Source: a candidate division TA06 bacterium (GTDB lineage Bacteria > Edwardsbacteria > AC1 > EtOH8). From it: a DNA stretch of 42,852 nt. The notes below the pieces were generated by a model. That model was not told the origin of the DNA, ran no database searches, and saw only the letters and a program-made list of their open reading frames with translations. Below, piece after piece: positions 5,483 through 17,139 of the stretch. The position numbers and the translations under genes were made by a program. The DNA lies in contig JACQXR010000111.1 in NCBI GenBank assembly GCA_016208585.1, positions 1 through 42,852 on the forward strand, in the 5' to 3' direction. How positions within the stretch are numbered: the first letter of the stretch is position 1; each line of letters starts with the position of its first letter.

Positions 5483-8400
5483 ATGAAACATCAAAGAATG
5501 CGGGCAGCTATAACGGGAACACTCGTCTTAACATTCCTTATTTCAGCCGTTCCTTTGGCCGGACAACGGTTGGGCTACAATTCCTTTAATGCCGGAAATA
5601 TTTCATCTTTGTTTTACAATAACGGTTTTATCGGGGATTCCACCAACGCCCTTCCTTCCGGTTGGTGGCCCAGCAACGCCAAAAACTCGTATTTCAGCCG
5701 AGGCGGATTGTGGATCGGCGCCAGCAAAAATGGCGGGGACACTTATTCCGTTTCCACCGGTTGTCCGGGAGAATTTTTTCCTACGGCAGATTGTTCAACC
5801 ATGGTTTCTATCCGTCCCGGCAGCCGGGCGACTCAAGAGTTATGGGCCAGGTTTGACGACGCTAATCCGCTTTACAATCAGGGCGCGATTCTCAATGCGC
5901 AAGTGACGATGCGCGGTTATCAGTGGAGTTTTTCGCCGGTGGACAATTTTTACATCACCGAGTATCAGGTAAAAAATAACGGCAGCAATTATTTATCCGG
6001 CGTCTATGCCGGCTTTTATTATGACGGGGATGTGGTTACGACCCCAGCTGCTGATTCTAAGACCACAAATTACACCGACTTTGATGTTTCTCCCGACGAC
6101 AGCACCGGCCAGCCCCGCAACTTAGTGTGGATGACCGGTGACTCTGCCTGGGCCCAAAGCGTGGTTGGCTTTCCGGTGGGGTATTTGGGAATGCGCCTTT
6201 TGGAAGCCCGCAAACCCAATGGCAGCGCCATCGGCGTCTCATCGGCCAGAAGTTGGAAAATCACGGCGGATCCCGCCAGCGATGCCAATGCGCTGGATCT
6301 CTATAATCGCTATCGGTATTTATCCGCCAACGTTACCGATGCCGACGCCAAGCGGGTGATAAACGATTTTAGAATGACCACGGATTCGATTCACCTCAAA
6401 ATACCCGCCTACCTTATTAAAAATATTGAGGGGGTTTATCGAATAAACGACATCTTGCACGGGGGCACGAACTATTTTACCGGAGGCAGTTTTAATCGGG
6501 CCGGCTGGATTACTTTGGGAAAACCGGCTCCGGATGTGATAAAGGAAGCGTATAATCAATCCACGGACGATATTCAGACCAATGGCGCAGGAGATACCGT
6601 TACCGCGGTTCATGTTTCCAGCGTCCCGCTTGATTCAGTGGCCGGGGTTTGGCTGGCAAATGACGCCTCTCATACCGGCACAAATTATTATACCGGAGGG
6701 AGTTTTACATCCGACGGCTGGATTTATTTGGGAACGCCCATTGAACTCGCTATACTTACGGATTATCCGATTGCCTGGTGGTTTTATAAGGATAATAATG
6801 TTACGGTTTCATTCTGGAATCGGTATTGGAACGAGTCGGATTCCCCCAGCGACAATACCCATGTAACAGTAGGGATGACCACCAATTTCGACGAGGTGGA
6901 AGGCGTATATCTTCAAACAGACAGCCTTCATACCGGAACAAATTATTATACCGGCGGCAGTTTTGACAAAGCCACCGGCGCGATTACTCTGGGGACAGCC
7001 CTTCCAACTTTAGACCCGGTGTGGGTTTGTTATCGCACCTATGCTATCGCCGACTATAAGATGCTTCTTAACGCCGGTCCCTTTGCCTTGGCTCCCAATG
7101 ATTCTATAAAAGCGGTCTACGCTACTGTAGCCGGCCAGACATTAGCCGAGCTTCGGAAAAATTCCGATCTGGCCCAGTATATGTGGGATCATCCGGGCTA
7201 TGTTCCCGCCTCCACCTATGGCTCAATATCGGGAAGAATAAAAAGGACCGACGACGTTACCGGCATTGAAAATGCTTTGGTCAAAATTTTTCAAGCGGGC
7301 CTGGCAAAAGACAGCGCCTGGAGCGCGGTTGACGGCGGATATGCTTTAAACAGCCTGGAGGCGGGCAGCTATGATTCTCTGAGGGCAGCGCGCGCCGCTT
7401 ATGCGGACAGCAACATTACCGGCCCCATTTCGGTAATCGGCTCGAAGGACAGCCTGGGATTTGATCTGGCCTTAAGGTATCAATATGCCACGATTAAGGG
7501 CAAGGTTACCAGAACCGATGGCGTTACCCCCTTGGCCGGCGTTTACCTCGAATTAAAAGGCTCCCAATATCAAAGCGCTTACAGCGATAATGAAGGCGGA
7601 TATATATTTCAATCTGTAAATCCGGCCGTGGGCGATTCGATCGTGGCCTCTTTGTCGGACTATCAGGGGAAGATAGTCCCGGGCGTAGTAACGGCCAACG
7701 ACTCGGTGACCGTGGTAAATGTTCAAATGCAGTATTTGTATGCCAACATCACCGGAAAGATAACCGGCACCGATGGTCTAACGCCGGTGGCCGGGGCTTC
7801 GGTGACGGCCAGCGGAAATAATTCCTACAATACCCTGGCCAATTTCGAGGGTTTTTATGACGTCAAAGGAATGGCGGCGGACACCTATAAAGTGATTGTT
7901 TCGGCCTGGGGATTTGGTTCCGACTCGGCGATGGCCGTAATCGCAAAAGTCGATTCGATATCCCGGATTGATTTTTCTTTGCATCAAGCTTCAGCCGACG
8001 GCTCGATGCGCTGGGCGGATAAAACATCGCTGTCAACCAAACGTTATGGGCTGGGTTCGGCAGCGGTTGGGGGAAAGATTTACGTCATTGGAGGAATGGG
8101 CGAGAATGAGGCGGTATTAGTCACAGTTGAAGAATATGATCCGCTTGCCGATACGGTAAACGGCCTGCCCTGGTCAACCAAGGCTTCCATGCCCGCACCC
8201 CGCTATGGTTTGGCCTGTGTCTCTTTAGGCGATTCTATTATCTATGCCATCGGCGGATATGATGCCTTGGAAAACGCTTTAAGCACAGTTGAGGCTTACA
8301 AACCTAAAACCAATACTTGGCTTGCCGGATTTGCGCCCATGCCTACGCCCCGGGCATATTTGGGGATTGGAGTTCTCAACGACACCATCTATGCCGTGGG

Positions 8401-9472
8401 CGGGGAGAATAATAGCATCGCCGGCCTGGATACCGTAGAAGCTTATGACCCGATAAGCAATTCCTGGACGACGAAGAAATCGCTTTTAGGAGGACCGAAT
8501 TCTGGCCGTTCCGGCTTAACCTGCGCTACTCCCGATAGCGCCGGAATTATCAGGCTCCACGTTGTTGATGGTAAAAAGGTTGACGGAACTTATATGCAGA
8601 CGCATCAGAAATATAACCAGGCTGCCAATACTTGGGTTGCCCGAATGGCGCCGCCGACGCCTCCCATGGCATTTTTAGCCAGCGATGTGATTTACGATAG
8701 CATCTATTGTTTGGGAGGGCGAGACCTTTCCGGCTATTATAACTCCGCCGTTACCTATAACCCTTACAGCAACACTTGGCGGACTGAAACTCCCCTGCCC
8801 AGTCCCAAAGCATATTTTGGAGCAAGGGCAATTGAAGGCAATGGCATTTATGTCATGGGGGGAAAATCCGATGATGTAACCATAGTGGGGACGGTAAGAA
8901 AGGGCTATAGATATGGCTCTATTTCCGGAACAGCAACAGTCAAAATTTCAGGCGCCGCCATCGCCGGGGCGTTGGTGGAATGCGTCCAAGGAGGAAAGAC
9001 TGCCGGCAGCGATTATACCGATAACAACGGTTTTTATGTTCTCTCAAACCTTGAACCGGGGCTTTATAATGTCCGCTTTTATAAGACCGGCGATGTTGAT
9101 AGTACGATTAACAATGTGAATGTGCTTTGGGGGCAGAATACCGTTTTAGATTTTGTCGGCGTGGCAGGTAATAGGCCTACCGAACTTTCCGCTTTAATCT
9201 TTGCGTTATATCCTGCCTACCCAAATCCAGTACGGAACCAGGCCGTTATTGGCTATCAAATTCCGGCCAAGGCATTGGTGAATTTATCGGTTTACAACGT
9301 GCTGGGTCAAAAGGTAAAAACCCTGGTCAACGGCAGTCAGAATGCGGGATGGCATTCGGTGACCTGGAACGGACGGGATAACGGGGGCCGCAAGGTAGCC
9401 AGCGGCATTTACCTGTATCGCCTGACCACCGGCTCCGAAAATGCGGTTAAAAAACTAGTGGTGATAAGGTAG
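5483..9472 (+). CDS. Large secreted Kelch / carboxypeptidase-regulatory-domain surface protein with FlgD-like tail
   Basis: A 1329-residue exported protein. The start is supported by AAGGAGGG seven bases upstream and a signal peptide (MKHQRMRAA, hydrophobic core, cut near PLAGQ). Residues ~30-570 contain three copies of a roughly 40-residue unit (at about 316, 386 and 473) built on (E/A)GV(Y/W)...GTNY(F/Y)TGGSF...LG. Carboxypeptidase-regulatory-like beta domains start near 575, 669, 753 and 1143. Five or six Kelch blades occupy about 842-1130 (IYVIGG, IYAIGG, IYAVGG, IYCLGG, IYVMGG with matching VEAYDP). The last ~90 residues are FlgD-like (YPNPVRNQA, VYNVLGQKVKTL, WNGRDNGGRKVASGIYLYRL). Probable role: surface adhesion or ligand binding; no enzyme motif seen. 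Expected to be a client of the downstream PorU/PorV-like pair. Followed by its own terminator. Confidence 0.85.
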   Translation: MKHQRMRAAITGTLVLTFLISAVPLAGQRLGYNSFNAGNISSLFYNNGFIGDSTNALPSGWWPSNAKNSYFSRGGLWIGASKNGGDTYSVSTGCPGEFFPTADCSTMVSIRPGSRATQELWARFDDANPLYNQGAILNAQVTMRGYQWSFSPVDNFYITEYQVKNNGSNYLSGVYAGFYYDGDVVTTPAADSKTTNYTDFDVSPDDSTGQPRNLVWMTGDSAWAQSVVGFPVGYLGMRLLEARKPNGSAIGVSSARSWKITADPASDANALDLYNRYRYLSANVTDADAKRVINDFRMTTDSIHLKIPAYLIKNIEGVYRINDILHGGTNYFTGGSFNRAGWITLGKPAPDVIKEAYNQSTDDIQTNGAGDTVTAVHVSSVPLDSVAGVWLANDASHTGTNYYTGGSFTSDGWIYLGTPIELAILTDYPIAWWFYKDNNVTVSFWNRYWNESDSPSDNTHVTVGMTTNFDEVEGVYLQTDSLHTGTNYYTGGSFDKATGAITLGTALPTLDPVWVCYRTYAIADYKMLLNAGPFALAPNDSIKAVYATVAGQTLAELRKNSDLAQYMWDHPGYVPASTYGSISGRIKRTDDVTGIENALVKIFQAGLAKDSAWSAVDGGYALNSLEAGSYDSLRAARAAYADSNITGPISVIGSKDSLGFDLALRYQYATIKGKVTRTDGVTPLAGVYLELKGSQYQSAYSDNEGGYIFQSVNPAVGDSIVASLSDYQGKIVPGVVTANDSVTVVNVQMQYLYANITGKITGTDGLTPVAGASVTASGNNSYNTLANFEGFYDVKGMAADTYKVIVSAWGFGSDSAMAVIAKVDSISRIDFSLHQASADGSMRWADKTSLSTKRYGLGSAAVGGKIYVIGGMGENEAVLVTVEEYDPLADTVNGLPWSTKASMPAPRYGLACVSLGDSIIYAIGGYDALENALSTVEAYKPKTNTWLAGFAPMPTPRAYLGIGVLNDTIYAVGGENNSIAGLDTVEAYDPISNSWTTKKSLLGGPNSGRSGLTCATPDSAGIIRLHVVDGKKVDGTYMQTHQKYNQAANTWVARMAPPTPPMAFLASDVIYDSIYCLGGRDLSGYYNSAVTYNPYSNTWRTETPLPSPKAYFGARAIEGNGIYVMGGKSDDVTIVGTVRKGYRYGSISGTATVKISGAAIAGALVECVQGGKTAGSDYTDNNGFYVLSNLEPGLYNVRFYKTGDVDSTINNVNVLWGQNTVLDFVGVAGNRPTELSALIFALYPAYPNPVRNQAVIGYQIPAKALVNLSVYNVLGQKVKTLVNGSQNAGWHSVTWNGRDNGGRKVASGIYLYRLTTGSENAVKKLVVIR

Positions 9473-9491
9473 TCGCAGCTTAAACTGAAAT

Positions 9492-9524
9492 GGCACGGCC
9501 AGAACCTTTTGTTTTGGCCGTGCC
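9492..9524 (+). terminator. Intrinsic terminator after the Kelch gene
   Basis: GGCACGGCCA and TGGCCGTGCC form a perfect 10-bp stem around a 13-base loop, followed by the moderately T-rich GAATTTCTTAATT, 19 bases after the stop codon. Confidence 0.7.
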
Positions 9525-9554
9525 GAATTTCTTAATTATTTGTTGCTTTATCTC

Positions 9555-9583
9555 TTGACAAATGCCGGTTTGTATGTTAAGAT
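9555..9583 (+). promoter_or_regulatory. Sigma70-type promoter of the sortase operon
   Basis: TTGACA at 9555-9560, a 17-base spacer and TAAGAT at 9578-9583, an excellent promoter by spacing and hexamers. Predicted transcription start near 9590 gives a leader of about 185 bases before the ATG at 9776. Confidence 0.8.
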
Positions 9584-9589
9584 ACGGTA

Positions 9590-9761
9590 AATAAGAGGAG
9601 ACGAAATTAGCGCCCGGTACATGTAAGTAAAACAGTTCGGAAACTAAAACTAAGCCGCCAAGGGCGGGGCTGTTTTATAGCAATGATGCCGGTCGTTTAC
9701 CCTTCGGACCAGAGCCAACCTGGCTGGCATCATTTTTAAAAATGATGCCAGTTTTTTATTT
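9590..9761 (+). promoter_or_regulatory. Structured 5' leader with terminator/anti-terminator switch (possible riboswitch or attenuator)
   Basis: An 8-bp stem pairs TAAAACAG (9628-9635) with CTGTTTTA (9670-9677), enclosing a small GTT/AAC hairpin and a GCC/GGC-rich hairpin. Downstream, three segments compete: A, AATGATGCC (9682-9690); B, GGCATCATT (9726-9734); C, AATGATGCC (9741-9749). B with C makes a perfect terminator; A with B would prevent it. Between A and B are further small inverted repeats (GGTC/GACC and GCC/GGC). I compared it by memory with the common riboswitch consensus motifs (c-di-GMP-I and -II, preQ1, fluoride, SAM, TPP, cobalamin, guanidine) and found no match. No leader peptide with an obvious regulatory codon run was noticed. 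Confidence 0.65.
9724..9757 (+). terminator. Conditional intrinsic terminator in the leader
   Basis: A perfect 28-base palindrome at 9724-9751 (arms CTGGCATCATTTTT and its complement) followed by six T residues, placed just before the AAGGAGG ribosome site at 9762-9768. Its position between a good promoter and the gene it serves implies regulated read-through rather than simple gene-end termination. Confidence 0.8.
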
Positions 9762-9775
9762 AAGGAGGTTTTGTC

Positions 9776-11272
9776 ATGCGTAAATTTATTATTTTAGCCC
9801 TGGCTTTGGCCGGGCACGCTTGGGCCCAGCAATGGTCGCCCGCCATCAATCTTATGCCCGGGGATCCCGGATCCTCCTGGACCGCCTCAAACCAAGCCCA
9901 CAGCCTGGCGGTTCGGGGAGATACAATTTATCTGGTCTGGTACAATTCAACCTGGGGACCGGTAAATATGGGACATCAAATATATTATAAAAAGTTTGAT
10001 GGAACCGCCTGGGGCCCGGTCAATATACTAGTAAACGACACCTTAAACTGGCGGAGGCACAGCTGGTATCCCTCGTGCGCGCTGGATGTTGCCGGTAATC
10101 TGCATGTAGTTTGGGAGTCTAACGACTTTGGTCAAATCTCCAGTTACGATATCGCCTACCGAAAGTTGAGCAGTAACGGTTCCTGGAGCGGAATAACCAG
10201 GGTTACTTCCAACAGCTCCCAGGGATATTCCTGGCGGCCGGTGATCGCCTGCGGTACGGATAACCTGATCCACATAGCCTGGCAGGACAACCGGCAGGGA
10301 ACTTATAAAATATTTTACAAATCTTCGACCGGCGGCGGCAGCTGGGGCAATGATCTGTGCCTCAGCCCCCAGGGGGTTTATGCCGGGTTTCCCAGCATCG
10401 CCCTGTCCGGCAGCGAGCCGGCTGTAGCCTGGCAGGATTTCCGGGACGGCGTCCACCAGATATATTTTAAGAAATATTCAGGATCCAGCTGGGGAACAGA
10501 CAGCGCCATCAGCCAGAGTTCTTACGGAGCCTTTGCCCCGTGCCTGGCCGGGGACCAGGCCGGCAACCTGCATGCAGCCTGGGAAGATCTGAGAGACGGC
10601 AATTACGAGATATATTACCGTAAGTTCACCAGCCAGACCCAAAGCTGGGGTAATGTCATCAGGCTGACAAAAGATCCCTATTATTCCCGCCAGCCGTTTT
10701 TACTGTGTCAGGGCGACAGCACGGTAAATCTTTTTTGGTCGGATGACCGCGACGGCAGTTATGAGATATATCGCCGTCAGTCGGTTAACAATGTCTGGCA
10801 GCCCGAAACCACCCTTACCAACTTTGACGGCTCGGCCTCGATGTGTCCTTCGGCCGCGGTAGATTATCTGGGCAATCTGCATCTGGTCTGGTCGGATTTC
10901 GGCGTTTCCTACCAGGCCCCGGATATATTTTACATGTCGGGCGTCTACTCTAAAAAATCATTGTCAGGAAATCAGGCGGCCATTCCTGGATCAGCAGGCT
11001 TGGCCATGCTTCCGGCCATGCCCAACCCCATGCGCGACCGGACTAAAATTGCAATGATGATTATTCAAAGCGGCTGGGCCAGGGTCAGGGTCTATAATAT
11101 TGCCGGACAATTGGTGAAGGAATTGTATCAGGGTCACTTGGCCGGCGGGTTGCATGAATTTGATTGGGACGCTAAAGACGGGAACGGCGCCAGGGTCAGC
11201 AACGGACTGTATCTTACCCGGGCGGAATGTTCGGGAAGCTCAGCTACCGGGAAAATAATGGTGGTGAGGTGA
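9776..11272 (+). CDS. Secreted beta-propeller-like surface protein with FlgD-like tail
   Basis: A 498-residue exported protein. AAGGAGG sits seven bases upstream and the N-terminus is a short signal peptide (MRKFIILALALAGHAWA, then QQW). At least five repeats carry W-x-D-x-R-D-G-x-Y-(E/K)-I-(Y/F) signatures (WQDNRQGTYKIFYK, WQDFRDGVHQIYFK, WEDLRDGNYEIYYR, WSDDRDGSYEIYRR), which looks like a six-bladed propeller similar in layout to BNR/sialidase-type repeats; catalytic residues of sialidases are not evident. The last ~90 residues are FlgD-like (MPNPMRDRTKI, VYNIAGQLVKEL, WDAKDGNGARVSNGLYL). It is the first gene of an operon; the next start lies two bases after its stop. Likely a T9SS-type surface client; ligand unknown. 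Confidence 0.8.
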   Translation: MRKFIILALALAGHAWAQQWSPAINLMPGDPGSSWTASNQAHSLAVRGDTIYLVWYNSTWGPVNMGHQIYYKKFDGTAWGPVNILVNDTLNWRRHSWYPSCALDVAGNLHVVWESNDFGQISSYDIAYRKLSSNGSWSGITRVTSNSSQGYSWRPVIACGTDNLIHIAWQDNRQGTYKIFYKSSTGGGSWGNDLCLSPQGVYAGFPSIALSGSEPAVAWQDFRDGVHQIYFKKYSGSSWGTDSAISQSSYGAFAPCLAGDQAGNLHAAWEDLRDGNYEIYYRKFTSQTQSWGNVIRLTKDPYYSRQPFLLCQGDSTVNLFWSDDRDGSYEIYRRQSVNNVWQPETTLTNFDGSASMCPSAAVDYLGNLHLVWSDFGVSYQAPDIFYMSGVYSKKSLSGNQAAIPGSAGLAMLPAMPNPMRDRTKIAMMIIQSGWARVRVYNIAGQLVKELYQGHLAGGLHEFDWDAKDGNGARVSNGLYLTRAECSGSSATGKIMVVR

Positions 11273-11274
11273 AG

Positions 11275-14200
11275 ATGAGATATAAAATCATCATACCGCT
11301 TTTTTGGGCGCTGGTTACGGCCCCGAATACAGTCTGGGCCGGAGTCAAGGTGTCGGAATCCACCGACCAAGGGATAGTATTGGAGCTTTCCTGTCCCCAG
11401 CCCCAATTTGAAAAGGTTCTAATAAAGGGGACGGAATACTTCAGGGTCACGGCCGCCGGCTGTCCTGGCCTGACCGAACCCGGCCGTCCGGCCTTGCCGG
11501 TAATTGGCGCCATGATACTGGTGCCGCCCAACGCCATTCCAGAGATAGTATCAGCCGAGCCGGCCGAGACCGTGAACTATAAAAAAATACCGGCTCCGGC
11601 TCCCGAAATACTGCTGGACAAGGAAACCGTTCCCGATCCGGTTGTTTACCGGGGAGGCCAGGTTTATCCGGCAAACCTGGTCAGCCTTTCCCGGCCGGTC
11701 AGGGCCGGCCTCCACAAGATGGCTTTCATTTCCTTTAACCCGGTGCGGTTTTATCCGGCCGGCGGTAATTTATCCTATGTAAAAAGCATCAAGGTCCGGG
11801 TTCGATTCAAACCGTCCGGCTTGGGCGACCAGCCGCTGGCACCGGGGAAAGCCGATCAGCTGACCGCCGGGATCGGGATGATCGCCGCCAAGAGCGCCGC
11901 CAATCCAACTCAGATGGCCGGCTGGGCCTCCCGTCCCGCTTCCGGCAAAAAAACAAAGTCAAGCGTCTGGGCCGATACCCTGCCCTATAAAATATTGATA
12001 GAGGAAGAAGGCATTTATAAAATCGGCTATTATGATTTGTTGCAGGCCGGACTCAATCCCGGCTGGTTCGATCCCCGCAGTTATAAATTGTTCAACCAGG
12101 GCCGGGAAGTCCCGATTTATTTCAAAGGCCAGGCTGACGGCGTATTTGACCAGGACGATTATTTTGAATTCTACGGACAGCGCCTGAAAGGCGACAGCAG
12201 TTATTATCACCCTTATTCCCGGGATAACGTTTACTGGCTGGGGGCCGGCGGCAGTTTTGGGGCCAGGATGATCGAGGAGGATGGAAGCCCGTTAAATCAA
12301 AACTATGTCCTGCCAGGCTCCTGCCGGTATAAAATGCATTTGGAAAAGGACAGCCTTTTTTACCGGCTGAACAGTCCTTCCAGCGATCAAACCGATCGCT
12401 GGTTCTGGCAGCGGATAGATAAAAGCGACAGCATGGTTCTAAGTTTTTCTCTGCCCGGCCTTGATAGCGGAGCCATTGACAGCGTCAATCTAACCATAGG
12501 CCTGCACGGCTACACAGAACTTGACGAAGACTCTTTTCCTGGAAACGATCATTGGGCTATAATCACTTTGAACGGCAAATCATTAGATAATTACGTGCGC
12601 TGGGACGGCCAGACTCCGCATATATTTGAAACGAAGTTAGATCCAGATAGGTTGGTTGAGGGCCAAAACCGGCTGGTGCTTAAACACGGTCCGCTGGGCA
12701 CCAGCGACACTTATTTCTTCAACTGGATGGAGGTGGAATATTCCCGGCGCTATGTTGCCAACGGCGGAAGCGTGGCTTTCAAGGCTCCTTCCCAGGGCTC
12801 GGACAGCTTGTTCCGTTATGAAATAAAGGGATTTGAGAATCAGAGCATAGACCTGTATAAGCTGGGGGTCAGTAAAATTACCGGAACCGTGGTGGAGCGC
12901 GATCCTGACGGAATAACCTACCGGCTGACTTTTGAAGACCGGGCCTCCTCCCAAACCGGTTATTATGCCGTGCAAAACGATGACCGGCACAAGCTGAAAC
13001 CCAAGGCCATTGTGGCCAATCATATCCCGGCCCAGGCCCTGACCGATCCCTCCCAGTCCGCCCAATATCTGATAATAACCACGGAAGAATTTTTGGCGCC
13101 GGCCGCAAGGTTGGCCGCCATCCGGGGAACCCAATTTAACGGGTCTAAGGTTGTTCTGGCTTCGGATATTTACGATGCTTTTAATTACGGAATACCCCAG
13201 GACCGGCCGATCAAGGAATTTTTGCGCCAGGCTTTTATGACCGGGCAGGTTCCGCCGGCCTATGTCTTGCTGTTGGGAGGAGGAAGCTGGGATCCCCGCA
13301 ACCTGTCGGGGCATTCTTATTCCGATAAAATTCCGGCGCATTTGACCCGGACCTCTGATTTTGGCCCGACCGCGGACGACAATTATTATGCCGACATATT
13401 GGACGACGATCAATTTCCCTCGCTGCCGGATATCGCGGTGGGCAGGATCCCGGTAAATAACGCTAACGATTGTCAGATCTGGGAAACCAAACAATTGTCC
13501 TACGAGCAACAGCCGCTGCTTGATCAGTGGCAGCGTGATTTTATGCTGATAGCCGGAAGGAATGTGAATTCCGGGGACAATTTCGACGGGGAAAGCAATC
13601 TGCTGGCGGCCTCATTAGATACCAGATACACTGTTTCAAAGGTCTACCACAGCAATCCCGCCACCACCCAGGATTTGATAGATCAGTTCAACGAGGGTTC
13701 TGTGCTGGCAGGATTTAACGGGCACGGTGGCGGTCAGGTATGGTCCCACGACAGTTTTTTCAGACTTGACGAGGTGGCTATGTTCAATAACTGGGGCCGC
13801 TGGCCGTTGGTGGGTTCATTCACCTGTCACAGCGGCGCTTTCGACATTCCTGATACGGTGTCCCTGTCCCAGGCCATGCTATTAAAGACCTATAGCGGTG
13901 CAGTAGGGGTATTTGCCAGTTCAGGGCCATCCTGGGAGAGCGTTATAGAACAGGCATTTTTTGGGGCGGTCGATGATTATGATCTTACAAGATTTGGCGA
14001 TATTTTGATCAGCTCCAAGTTTGAACTGGCCGCTAAGACAGGTATGTCGGTACATGCCGGAGAGATGATAACCAGCTATAATCTGCTCGGGGACCCGGGC
14101 ATGCGCCTGGCTGTTTCCCACCGAAATATTGAAATGACGCTGATCCCGGCTTCGCTTTTGCCGGGAGATTCCCTGACGGTTACCATCAGAGGCGGCTTCA

Positions 14201-16140
14201 AAGCTGGGAGCATCACTTTGCTCTCGCTGTGCGACTCCGTCGGCAATCCGGTTGTTAATTCTTCGCTGTTCTCCGACACGGTCGGCAAAGTTGCAGCCAG
14301 GGTGAAGGTTCCGGACTCCATGTCGACTGGAAAAGCGCTGATGAAGGCCTTTGTCAAAGATGCCGACAGCAGTTGGATTGCCTGCGGGGAGATGGGAATT
14401 AACCGGCCGGTTATTTACGGCATAACCGCCACGCCGGCCCGGCCGGTCAATCTGGTTGACAGCGTTGATATAGTTGCCGGAGCTTCCAGCCTGTGGGGAA
14501 TAGACAGCGTCTGGTGCGAATGGCGCACCTCAACAATCAGGTCTGATACCGGACTTCTCCAGAGCACATTGATGGACAGTTCCGCGCCCGGTTGGTTCAA
14601 ATTACGAACGAAAATCATCAATGTCGGGCCTTCCGACACTGTGCTCAATTACCGGATCTGCCTTTCCGGGCCAGCCGCAGCCAAGTTGGTAAGCAGTTGG
14701 AAACATCATCATCTTTTGACCCGCCCCGACCTGACCCCGAGGGAAAAGATAAACAGTAACGATAACTCATATTTTGGCGGGAAAAGGCGGCTGACCATTT
14801 TTACTGATATCTATAATAATGGAGAAACCAGGGCCGACAGTATCCCCCTTCATTTTTACCGCTATAACAACGAACTTCCTCCGAAGGATTCAGTAACCGT
14901 GATGCTGGATTCAATTTTACCGGGAACTAAGGCGGTGGCGGCTGTTCCCTGGACCCTGGATCCGGGAAAAGAGGCAGATACAATCAAACTGTCCATAGAC
15001 CCGTATGCCAAATCCTGGCCGCCGGAACAGGATACCAGCAATAACCATTTTGCCTCAAACTCTTATGATCTGCCAAAGTACCCGGACGAAAAAGTATACC
15101 GCCAGCTGGGCCTGCTGGGAAGCGTTGACACTGTTTCCTTGTCCAAATATCCGGTCAGGTATTTCCTGCCCGACTCCAGCCTTTTAGACAGTGCCGTGGC
15201 GGTAGTGGGGTATGAACCAGTCAATCAAACTTCGCCCTTAAATCCCGTCCGCCAGCCGGGCCTTAAGCTGATCGGCGACCAACTGCGGGATGTTTATTTT
15301 ATGACCATTACCGATTCAACCCGTGGCTTGTCCAATGGAAAAAAATTATGGATCAGCCTGGATTGGCCCCAGTTGGATGAAATCAGCGATCTGAGCCTGG
15401 TCAACCTTTACCGTTTTAATACCCGCCAGGGTTTATGGCAAAAAGTTCCCGGAGAAGCTGATACGGTTAAAGTATGGGGTTTCTCGGATTCGCTGGGCAC
15501 TTTCATGCCCCTGATCGGAACCGACACCACGGCGCCTTTAATCACCGCCCGACTGGAACAGCAGGCCACGGGTTGGGGGCAAACAGTCAAAGTATCCCGC
15601 CCCCAATACTCGGTATTGATTGAGGACCCCAACGGCATCAATCTGGATTCGGTCTGGGTTAAAAAAGACGTGGCGCTGGTCCCCCGCAATGAGTATAATT
15701 TGCCGACCCAGCCCCAGGATCATACCAGCGTGCCCCTGGCCTATGCCCCGTATCTGACCGACGGCCAGCATACTTTGGAATTCGGGGCCTGCGATAATCT
15801 GGGCAACAGCTCGGCGGTCTCGGTTCAATTGACGGTGGCTGCCGAGTTTGGGCTTTATTACCTGGCCTGTTATCCTACTCCCGTCGACGGGAACTATGCC
15901 ACTTTTTACTTTTTTGTGGGCGATCATGCCGATCAGTATGAGCTTAAAATATATACCGTGGCCGGAAGGCTGATCAAGACCTTCAAAGGCGGGTATGTCC
16001 CGGGCGAAAAGCGGCTGAACTGGAATGTTGATGATGATTCGGGACAAAGGGTGGCCAACGGGGTTTATTTTTATACCGTAGAAGTCTGGTCCGACGGAAG
16101 ATACCAGAAAAAGACCGAAAAACTGGCCGTTTTACGATAA
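11275..16140 (+). CDS. porU: Gingipain-family (C25) peptidase, PorU-like sortase
   Basis: A 1621-residue protein; ATG 11275 follows the previous stop by two bases and gives a signal peptide (MRYKIIIPLFWALVTAPNTVWA). Propeptide-like beta domains come first. The C25 catalytic domain lies at about 600-935, with the catalytic His in FNGHGGGQVW (H817) and the nucleophile in GSFTCHSGAFD (C851), as expected for gingipains and PorU. Ig-like beta domains and a FlgD-like tail follow (IYTVAGRLIKTF, WNVDDDSGQRVANGVYFYTV). PorU in Bacteroidetes is a T9SS cell-surface sortase that removes client C-terminal signals and itself carries such a domain. This copy is longer than usual because of the added Ig-like region. 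Neighbours (a client-like gene before, a PorV-like gene after) support sortase over secreted protease; a secreted gingipain-like protease is the alternative. Confidence 0.8.
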   Translation: MRYKIIIPLFWALVTAPNTVWAGVKVSESTDQGIVLELSCPQPQFEKVLIKGTEYFRVTAAGCPGLTEPGRPALPVIGAMILVPPNAIPEIVSAEPAETVNYKKIPAPAPEILLDKETVPDPVVYRGGQVYPANLVSLSRPVRAGLHKMAFISFNPVRFYPAGGNLSYVKSIKVRVRFKPSGLGDQPLAPGKADQLTAGIGMIAAKSAANPTQMAGWASRPASGKKTKSSVWADTLPYKILIEEEGIYKIGYYDLLQAGLNPGWFDPRSYKLFNQGREVPIYFKGQADGVFDQDDYFEFYGQRLKGDSSYYHPYSRDNVYWLGAGGSFGARMIEEDGSPLNQNYVLPGSCRYKMHLEKDSLFYRLNSPSSDQTDRWFWQRIDKSDSMVLSFSLPGLDSGAIDSVNLTIGLHGYTELDEDSFPGNDHWAIITLNGKSLDNYVRWDGQTPHIFETKLDPDRLVEGQNRLVLKHGPLGTSDTYFFNWMEVEYSRRYVANGGSVAFKAPSQGSDSLFRYEIKGFENQSIDLYKLGVSKITGTVVERDPDGITYRLTFEDRASSQTGYYAVQNDDRHKLKPKAIVANHIPAQALTDPSQSAQYLIITTEEFLAPAARLAAIRGTQFNGSKVVLASDIYDAFNYGIPQDRPIKEFLRQAFMTGQVPPAYVLLLGGGSWDPRNLSGHSYSDKIPAHLTRTSDFGPTADDNYYADILDDDQFPSLPDIAVGRIPVNNANDCQIWETKQLSYEQQPLLDQWQRDFMLIAGRNVNSGDNFDGESNLLAASLDTRYTVSKVYHSNPATTQDLIDQFNEGSVLAGFNGHGGGQVWSHDSFFRLDEVAMFNNWGRWPLVGSFTCHSGAFDIPDTVSLSQAMLLKTYSGAVGVFASSGPSWESVIEQAFFGAVDDYDLTRFGDILISSKFELAAKTGMSVHAGEMITSYNLLGDPGMRLAVSHRNIEMTLIPASLLPGDSLTVTIRGGFKAGSITLLSLCDSVGNPVVNSSLFSDTVGKVAARVKVPDSMSTGKALMKAFVKDADSSWIACGEMGINRPVIYGITATPARPVNLVDSVDIVAGASSLWGIDSVWCEWRTSTIRSDTGLLQSTLMDSSAPGWFKLRTKIINVGPSDTVLNYRICLSGPAAAKLVSSWKHHHLLTRPDLTPREKINSNDNSYFGGKRRLTIFTDIYNNGETRADSIPLHFYRYNNELPPKDSVTVMLDSILPGTKAVAAVPWTLDPGKEADTIKLSIDPYAKSWPPEQDTSNNHFASNSYDLPKYPDEKVYRQLGLLGSVDTVSLSKYPVRYFLPDSSLLDSAVAVVGYEPVNQTSPLNPVRQPGLKLIGDQLRDVYFMTITDSTRGLSNGKKLWISLDWPQLDEISDLSLVNLYRFNTRQGLWQKVPGEADTVKVWGFSDSLGTFMPLIGTDTTAPLITARLEQQATGWGQTVKVSRPQYSVLIEDPNGINLDSVWVKKDVALVPRNEYNLPTQPQDHTSVPLAYAPYLTDGQHTLEFGACDNLGNSSAVSVQLTVAAEFGLYYLACYPTPVDGNYATFYFFVGDHADQYELKIYTVAGRLIKTFKGGYVPGEKRLNWNVDDDSGQRVANGVYFYTVEVWSDGRYQKKTEKLAVLR

Positions 16141-16149
16141 GGAGAGAAG

Positions 16150-17139
16150 ATGAAAAAGATATTATTCATAATGCTGGGATTGGCAATAGCGGCCTCGGTC
16201 AGGGCTGAAAGTTACGGCGGGGAGTTTTTGAATCTAGGTGTGGGGGCCCGGGCCCAGGGTATGGGAGGGGCATACGGACCTTTGGCGAATGATGCCAGCG
16301 CCATTTACTGGAATCCGGCCGGGCTGTCAGGAATAATCCGTCCGGAAATAATGTTCTGCCACACCCAGCTCTTTGGCGGGCTGGCCAATCATGATTTTCT
16401 TGGCCTGGCCTGGCCTTTGAACAAACGACTTAGCCTGGGACTGGGTTGGATCCGGCTGGGGGTGGACGATATTCCCCGTTTTTCCTACAATGTGGGAACC
16501 ATGCCTGAAGGCAGTTTTGGCGACAATGAGAACGCCGTCTACGTCTCGGCTGCTTTCCAAAGAGAAGTCGCTCCTTGGGGCAAGCCATTAAAACTTTCGG
16601 CCGGCGGAAGCGTCAAGCTGATATATAATAAGCTTGATGACCGTCAGGCCAGCGGGCTGGGGCTGGATTTCGGCCTGCAGGCCAAGCTCTGGCTGGCTGA
16701 GTGGCTGGCCGTAAGATCCGCCAACCAGGTGATCGTCGGCATGGAGCCGGCCGTGGTGGAACGGTCAAACTGGGGGACCATAGGGATTAGCCTGGCAGCC
16801 CAGGATATAGGCGGGACCAGCATTTCATGGAATACTTCAAGCCAGCATAACGATATTAAGCCGGCCGGATATAAGGCCGGAATATCGTATGCCCAGCCAA
16901 TTTTTCCCTGGCGCAGTCAGATTATCTTATCTGCCGAAGTCGCAAGCCAAAGCTACCAAAAAGGCCGGCTGGGATTAGAGGTTGACTATCGCAATCTGCT
17001 GACGGCCCGGCTGGGCCGGGATCAAAAGGATCTGGTCTGGGGCGGAGGTGTGACCGTGTGGAGGTTGAAATTCGATTGGGCCTACGCACCCCACCAATTG
17101 GGAAGCACTCATCGGGTGGGCTGCAGCTTTAAACTCTGA
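16150..17139 (+). CDS. porV: PorV/PorQ-like outer-membrane beta-barrel protein
   Basis: A 329-residue protein with a signal peptide (MKKILFIMLGLAIAASVRA) and the N-terminal hallmark of the PorV/PorQ family: FLNLGVGARAQGMGGAYGPLANDASAIYWNPAGLSG. The remainder is alternating beta-strand sequence ending in a basic/hydrophobic residue pattern typical of barrels. In T9SS, PorV carries clients from the translocon to the PorU sortase, so its position nine bases after a PorU-like gene is functionally meaningful. AAGGAGAG upstream supports the start. The operon ends at the terminator at 17169. Related FadL-like barrels are an alternative, but the neighbour makes PorV the better choice. Confidence 0.8.
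   Translation: MKKILFIMLGLAIAASVRAESYGGEFLNLGVGARAQGMGGAYGPLANDASAIYWNPAGLSGIIRPEIMFCHTQLFGGLANHDFLGLAWPLNKRLSLGLGWIRLGVDDIPRFSYNVGTMPEGSFGDNENAVYVSAAFQREVAPWGKPLKLSAGGSVKLIYNKLDDRQASGLGLDFGLQAKLWLAEWLAVRSANQVIVGMEPAVVERSNWGTIGISLAAQDIGGTSISWNTSSQHNDIKPAGYKAGISYAQPIFPWRSQIILSAEVASQSYQKGRLGLEVDYRNLLTARLGRDQKDLVWGGGVTVWRLKFDWAYAPHQLGSTHRVGCSFKL

Follow-up and report, generated by a model that had tools for sequence, protein, structure and literature searches.

The attenuators of the trp and his operons contain four RNA segments that pair in mutually exclusive combinations (1:2, 2:3, and 3:4), with the 3:4 hairpin forming a terminator before the first gene. In transcription-terminating riboswitches and orphan riboswitch candidates, a closed domain overlaps the antiterminator arm and the family occurs at more than one locus; by definition, the aptamer of a riboswitch binds its ligand in a protein-free manner (PMC10043782). 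Antitermination systems of the BglG/LicT, ANTAR, and LoaP/RfaH types would suit a leader whose termination is relieved only by a factor. For the type IX secretion system (T9SS) of Porphyromonas, the regulators named in a review are PorX, PorY, and SigP, all of which are proteins (PMC7463736). Among the open papers searched, none described leader-RNA control of porU.

Here we describe a leader RNA that precedes a T9SS-like operon of Candidatus Edwardsbacteria. The window, i.e., the whole stretch of DNA analysed, comprises 42,852 nucleotides of contig JACQXR010000111.1. The leader resembles the trp and his attenuators in its exclusive pairings and in the position of its 3:4 terminator, but it has no conserved leader peptide, and its targets are sortase genes rather than biosynthetic genes. 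It resembles riboswitches in its closed domain overlapping the antiterminator arm and in its occurrence at more than one locus, but it matches no known class, holds a candidate aptamer only, and is found in one phylum at about two copies per genome. The system under its putative control is of the same kind as that controlled by PorX, PorY, and SigP, which regulate transcription as proteins, whereas the leader is RNA. Sequence comparison establishes four complementary segments whose pairings are mutually exclusive, conserved, and covarying, and whose architecture recurs at two unlinked loci. The resulting candidate switch is defined by 17 leaders at two loci, with its antiterminator and terminator part backed by covariation, and is well supported as a previously undescribed transcription attenuator without a match in Rfam or in the papers searched.

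The leader and its operon

The leader, its promoter, the operon, and the terminator of the upstream gene are all on the plus strand. The first gene of the operon (9776-11272) encodes a 498-residue protein with a signal-peptide-like start and a C-terminal FlgD_ig or T9SS-tail-like domain. The second gene (11227-16140) encodes a PorU-like C25 sortase, which scores 321 bits against NF033707, under the 420-bit cut-off of that model, and the third gene (16150-17139) encodes a PorV/PorQ-like protein, with scores under the curated cut-offs. The gene upstream of the leader (5483-9472) encodes a 1329-residue protein with Kelch repeats, carboxypeptidase-regulatory-like domains, and a T9SS-type C-terminal tail. 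Its own terminator (9491-9525), present in both congeners too, shields the leader from upstream transcription.

A sigma-70-type promoter is located at 9555-9583 and is aligned in both congeners. The boxes TTGACA (9555-9560) and TAAGAT (9578-9583) are separated by a 17-nt spacer, and a TG lies upstream of TAAGAT. The transcript is expected to start near 9590, which corresponds to a leader of about 185 nt up to the ATG at 9776. The switch does not include the ribosome-binding site of the first gene, AAGGAGG (9762-9768), and control would therefore act on transcription. Because only 22 nt separate the terminator from the start codon and the upstream gene is terminated on its own, the transcript of this promoter must cross the terminator to reach the operon.

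Segment 1 (9610-9635) is complementary to segment 2 (9670-9696). The outer arm of segment 1 (9610-9619) is the 5' strand of helix P1 and pairs with 9687-9696; it is followed by the conserved strand CAUGUAAG (9620-9627; consensus AAnGU(C/A)AG) and by the inner stem P2 with its variable tip (9628-9677). P2 is an 8-bp stem formed by TAAAACAG (9628-9635) and CTGTTTTA (9670-9677), and its tip is not conserved. Residues 9682-9696 of segment 2 contain both the 3' strand of P1 and the antiterminator arm, so the closed domain overlaps the antiterminator strand. Segment 3 (9722-9734) is the left arm of the intrinsic terminator and is common to terminator and antiterminator, while segment 4 is the right arm. 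The terminator hairpin (9722-9753) is perfect and is followed by TTTTATTT; together with the U tract, the element extends to 9760.

The initial annotation had reported the promoter, the 8-bp stem, two copies of AATGATGCC (9682-9690 and 9741-9749), and the perfect terminator, and we find all of them where it placed them. It had also proposed that the left arm of the terminator, in the stretch GGCATCATT (9726-9734), can pair with the upstream copy instead. This pairing is longer than claimed, with 13 continuous base pairs between 9682-9694 (AAUGAUGCCGGUC) and 9722-9734 (GGCUGGCAUCAUU). The P1 helix and the second locus described below are additions to that annotation.

Predicted terminating and read-through folds

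Residues 9600-9765 fold at -56.5 kcal/mol, compared with a mean of -40.4 kcal/mol for shuffled sequences (z -4.0; reached by 0 of 200 shuffles), and z values across the leaders of the window and the two congeners range from -4.0 to -4.7. Within the upstream leader, the terminator arm finds its best partner at -21.3 kcal/mol, a value that none of 300 dinucleotide shuffles reaches. In 12 of the 17 leaders, no more than 3 of 300 shuffles match the 2:3 duplex, and in two others 8 and 9 do; in the three GC-rich leaders of genera g2 and g3 it is no better than shuffles.

These results support the leader as a putative four-segment attenuator, in which 1:2 and 3:4 would form in the terminating state and 2:3 in the read-through state. 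Pairing 1:2 is completed before segment 3 is transcribed. According to the predicted energies, all 17 leaders favor the terminating over the read-through fold, by 2-25 kcal/mol, and we read the switch as off by default and opened via segment 1. We infer this direction of control from modelled folds; the hairpin itself would presumably terminate in vivo.

The energies also bear on the alternative of a genuine riboswitch whose class is undescribed, in which the AAnGUCAG strand, together with segment 1 and the 3' strand, would build an aptamer and a ligand would shift the balance between 1:2 and 2:3. Such a riboswitch would account for the closed domain that overlaps the antiterminator arm and for a short conserved core that surrounds a variable tip and is common to two loci of related function. 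However, the core is short and simple beside most aptamers, the energies predict the terminating state for the RNA without ligand, and no Rfam family matches, making a riboswitch possible but unlikely. In particular, no family reached its gathering score for the window or 15 related loci, and nothing credible appeared at E values up to 10.

Leaders at a second sortase locus

A PorU-like gene is present in all ten genomes of the phylum examined. A covariance model built from the three congeneric leaders (R1) retrieves the leaders themselves and, in the same three genomes, weak matches immediately before a second C25 peptidase gene (E 0.08-0.47). This gene stands alone, unlinked to the window operon, and adjoins a prepilin peptidase gene (L063-L065, L070, L071, L073-L075). 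We refer to the window-type operon as locus A and to the stand-alone gene as locus B. The hairpin, segment 2, and the terminator are found upstream of the locus-B gene in genera g1, g4, g3, and g2, and a leader of the same architecture precedes the stand-alone PorU gene in 10 of 10 genomes of the phylum.

A second model (R2) was built from 16 leaders, with the G003 leader held out. On the training genomes, R2 identifies two loci in every g1 and g4 genome and a single locus in G004 and in G006, and it recovers the held-out G003 leader at the orthologous position (E 0.62 across the genome and 0.018 within the locus). When built from locus A alone, a third model (R3) retrieves locus B from no genome but G003. 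In their 5' halves, the locus-A and locus-B leaders resemble each other beyond shuffles (about 0.02 or less) for G000, G002, G003, G004, and G006, and not beyond shuffles for G001 and most of g4. Judged by these comparisons, the sequence kinship between the leaders of the two loci is moderate and their common descent is likely. The predicted control is wider than one operon, in that two unlinked T9SS sortase loci share the architecture.

At locus A, four genomes of genus g4 have a promoter and a leader before the same operon, and the architecture is the same while the sequence is largely different (segments 1-4: GTCAGTATC, GATACTGGC, GCCGGTATC, and GATACCGGC). Weak U tracts occur in the g4 leaders at locus A and in the G003 leader at locus B. 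In genus g2, the leader is absent before the window-type operon, where the promoter directly precedes the reading frame (L045 3793-3910, L047 4324-4440); this genus thus has no attenuator at the window-type operon, yet retains one at the second locus. The g3 contig stops short of the position of the locus-A leader.

Outside the phylum, R2 gave four weak matches in 376 genomes (E 0.005-0.018), no more than chance predicts, and no C25 sortase gene is evident beside them. Cloacimonadota and other distant PorU loci that we examined have no such leader. A search of ten genomes with a bipartite DNA pattern returned mostly unrelated sites. A long hairpin with a U tract at G009:C9:80655-80835 (L066) weakly matched R1 (E 0.054) and was not confirmed by R2; it sits downstream of genes that by eye resemble metK and ahcY, and is probably a chance match or an ordinary terminator.

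Covariation of the alternative pairings

In the two congeners, the leader precedes the same gene at 76-78% identity. Promoter and terminator are conserved, as are the 3' strand and some 30 nt of the 5' strand; the tip varies, and the interior of the domain is poorly conserved except for the short AAnGUCAG strand. Segments 2 and 3 read GATGCC/GGCATC in the window, GATACC/GGTATC in G002, and GATGCC/GGTATC in G001. In the predicted duplex, these changes are compensatory and exchange a G-C pair for an A-U pair via the G.U form.

A whole-leader MAFFT alignment over both loci misplaced the 5' ends, and pairs were therefore counted in hand-aligned segments. The set contains nine distinct rows in a hand-chosen register; the locus-B rows of g4, which have a bulge in the terminator arm, were excluded. 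Standard pairs occupy 97.8% of the 2:3 cells, compared with 16-39% when one segment is slid along the other, and 3:4 is paired in 100%, the rows being related and the counts therefore non-independent events. Three of the ten positions of 2:3 have changed on both sides, and the covariation score is reached by 4 of 500 shuffles. In most leaders, segments 2 and 4 are unlike each other and both are complementary to segment 3, as a switch requires.

This retention of pairing argues against a constitutive partial terminator or a 5'-UTR-derived sRNA, with constant read-through and no regulated switch. An sRNA gene is suggested by the cassette of own promoter, strong fold, and terminator, and the main product would then be a short RNA, but a plain sRNA would not need a segment 2 that stays complementary to the terminator arm while the sequence changes, and the cassette precedes two sortase loci in the same sense. 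We consider an sRNA or partial terminator improbable.

Where 2:3 departs from Watson-Crick pairing, nearly every case is a G.U pair, and this speaks for RNA. Repeated sequences of the GAUACCGGC type could instead be operators bound as DNA by a dimeric regulator, considering that a perfect palindrome and imperfect copies lie downstream of a strong promoter. However, G.U mismatches between the copies are meaningful in RNA only, most leaders have a U tract after the palindrome, and the copies are located about 90-160 nt past the start, all of which makes DNA operators barely plausible.

Overall, the initial annotation, which saw the architecture of a riboswitch or attenuator and could match the aptamer part to no known class, is borne out with regard to the missing class and to a terminator/anti-terminator leader of a T9SS-like operon, whose structure is conserved with covariation in relatives. 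Its reading of the upstream domain as an aptamer is unsupported; the predicted energies favor termination without a ligand, and the interior of the domain is poorly conserved.

Candidate agents acting on segment 1

On the segment-1 strand, AAnGU(C/A)AG is the only sequence common to nearly all leaders. We propose, with a probability of about 0.6, that the leader is a cis-acting attenuator that is off by default and is opened by a trans-acting factor on this strand. A long imperfect hairpin of segments 1 and 2 would form first on the nascent RNA. This would occupy segment 2 and leave segment 3 to pair with segment 4, forming the intrinsic terminator immediately ahead of the operon. If 1:2 is prevented or opened, 2:3 would form, the terminator would be blocked, and the polymerase would enter the sortase genes. 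The candidate agents on segment 1 are an RNA-binding protein, a ribosomal subunit, or a ligand; a protein or a ribosomal subunit acting around AAnGUCAG appears a better candidate than a small ligand.

A purine-rich, Shine-Dalgarno-like block lies near the 5' end of the window RNA (9595-9601), without a start codon at a usable distance; at p about 0.05 per leader, the block is suggestive only. Most related leaders likewise have a purine block 19-28 nt upstream of the AAnGUCAG strand, with weak statistics, and it could be a landing site for a ribosome or a protein. Together with the four-segment architecture and an AUG within AAUGUCAG in several leaders, this block is what a trp-like attenuator would present, in which a ribosome translating or stalled on a leader peptide covers segment 1. 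However, neither a start codon nor a reading frame is conserved among the 17 leaders: other leaders have ACG or AAG in place of the AUG, and AUG-UAA is found in the window's genus. A leader-peptide mechanism is therefore very improbable, and a ribosomal subunit bound without translation may be the agent.

Known trans-acting factors were searched for in the ten genomes. In contrast to what BglG/LicT and LoaP/RfaH systems would predict, the CAT_RBD domain of the BglG/LicT type is absent from 10 of 10 genomes, with positive controls, and each genome has a single NusG, with no second paralogue of the LoaP/RfaH type. CsrA is likewise absent from all ten, with positive controls. The ANTAR search gave no match in these genomes, and the control genomes were equally silent.

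A bolder reading is that the leaders form a new RNA sensor class, confined so far to Candidatus Edwardsbacteria, that couples an envelope or secretion signal to both type IX sortase loci by antitermination, with a small ligand or a dedicated RNA-binding protein as signal receiver. We advance this reading tentatively, as more doubtful than probable. If the signal is found, it would reveal how a lineage outside Bacteroidota times its type IX sortases, a system for which the review names only protein regulators (PMC7463736).

The two sortases fit the PorU family to different degrees. The locus-B protein scores 583 bits against NF033707 in G001, above the cut-off of 420 bits, compared with 321 bits for the protein of the window. 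The locus-B gene is the better PorU fit, and the PorU-like protein of the window appears as a diverged second copy.
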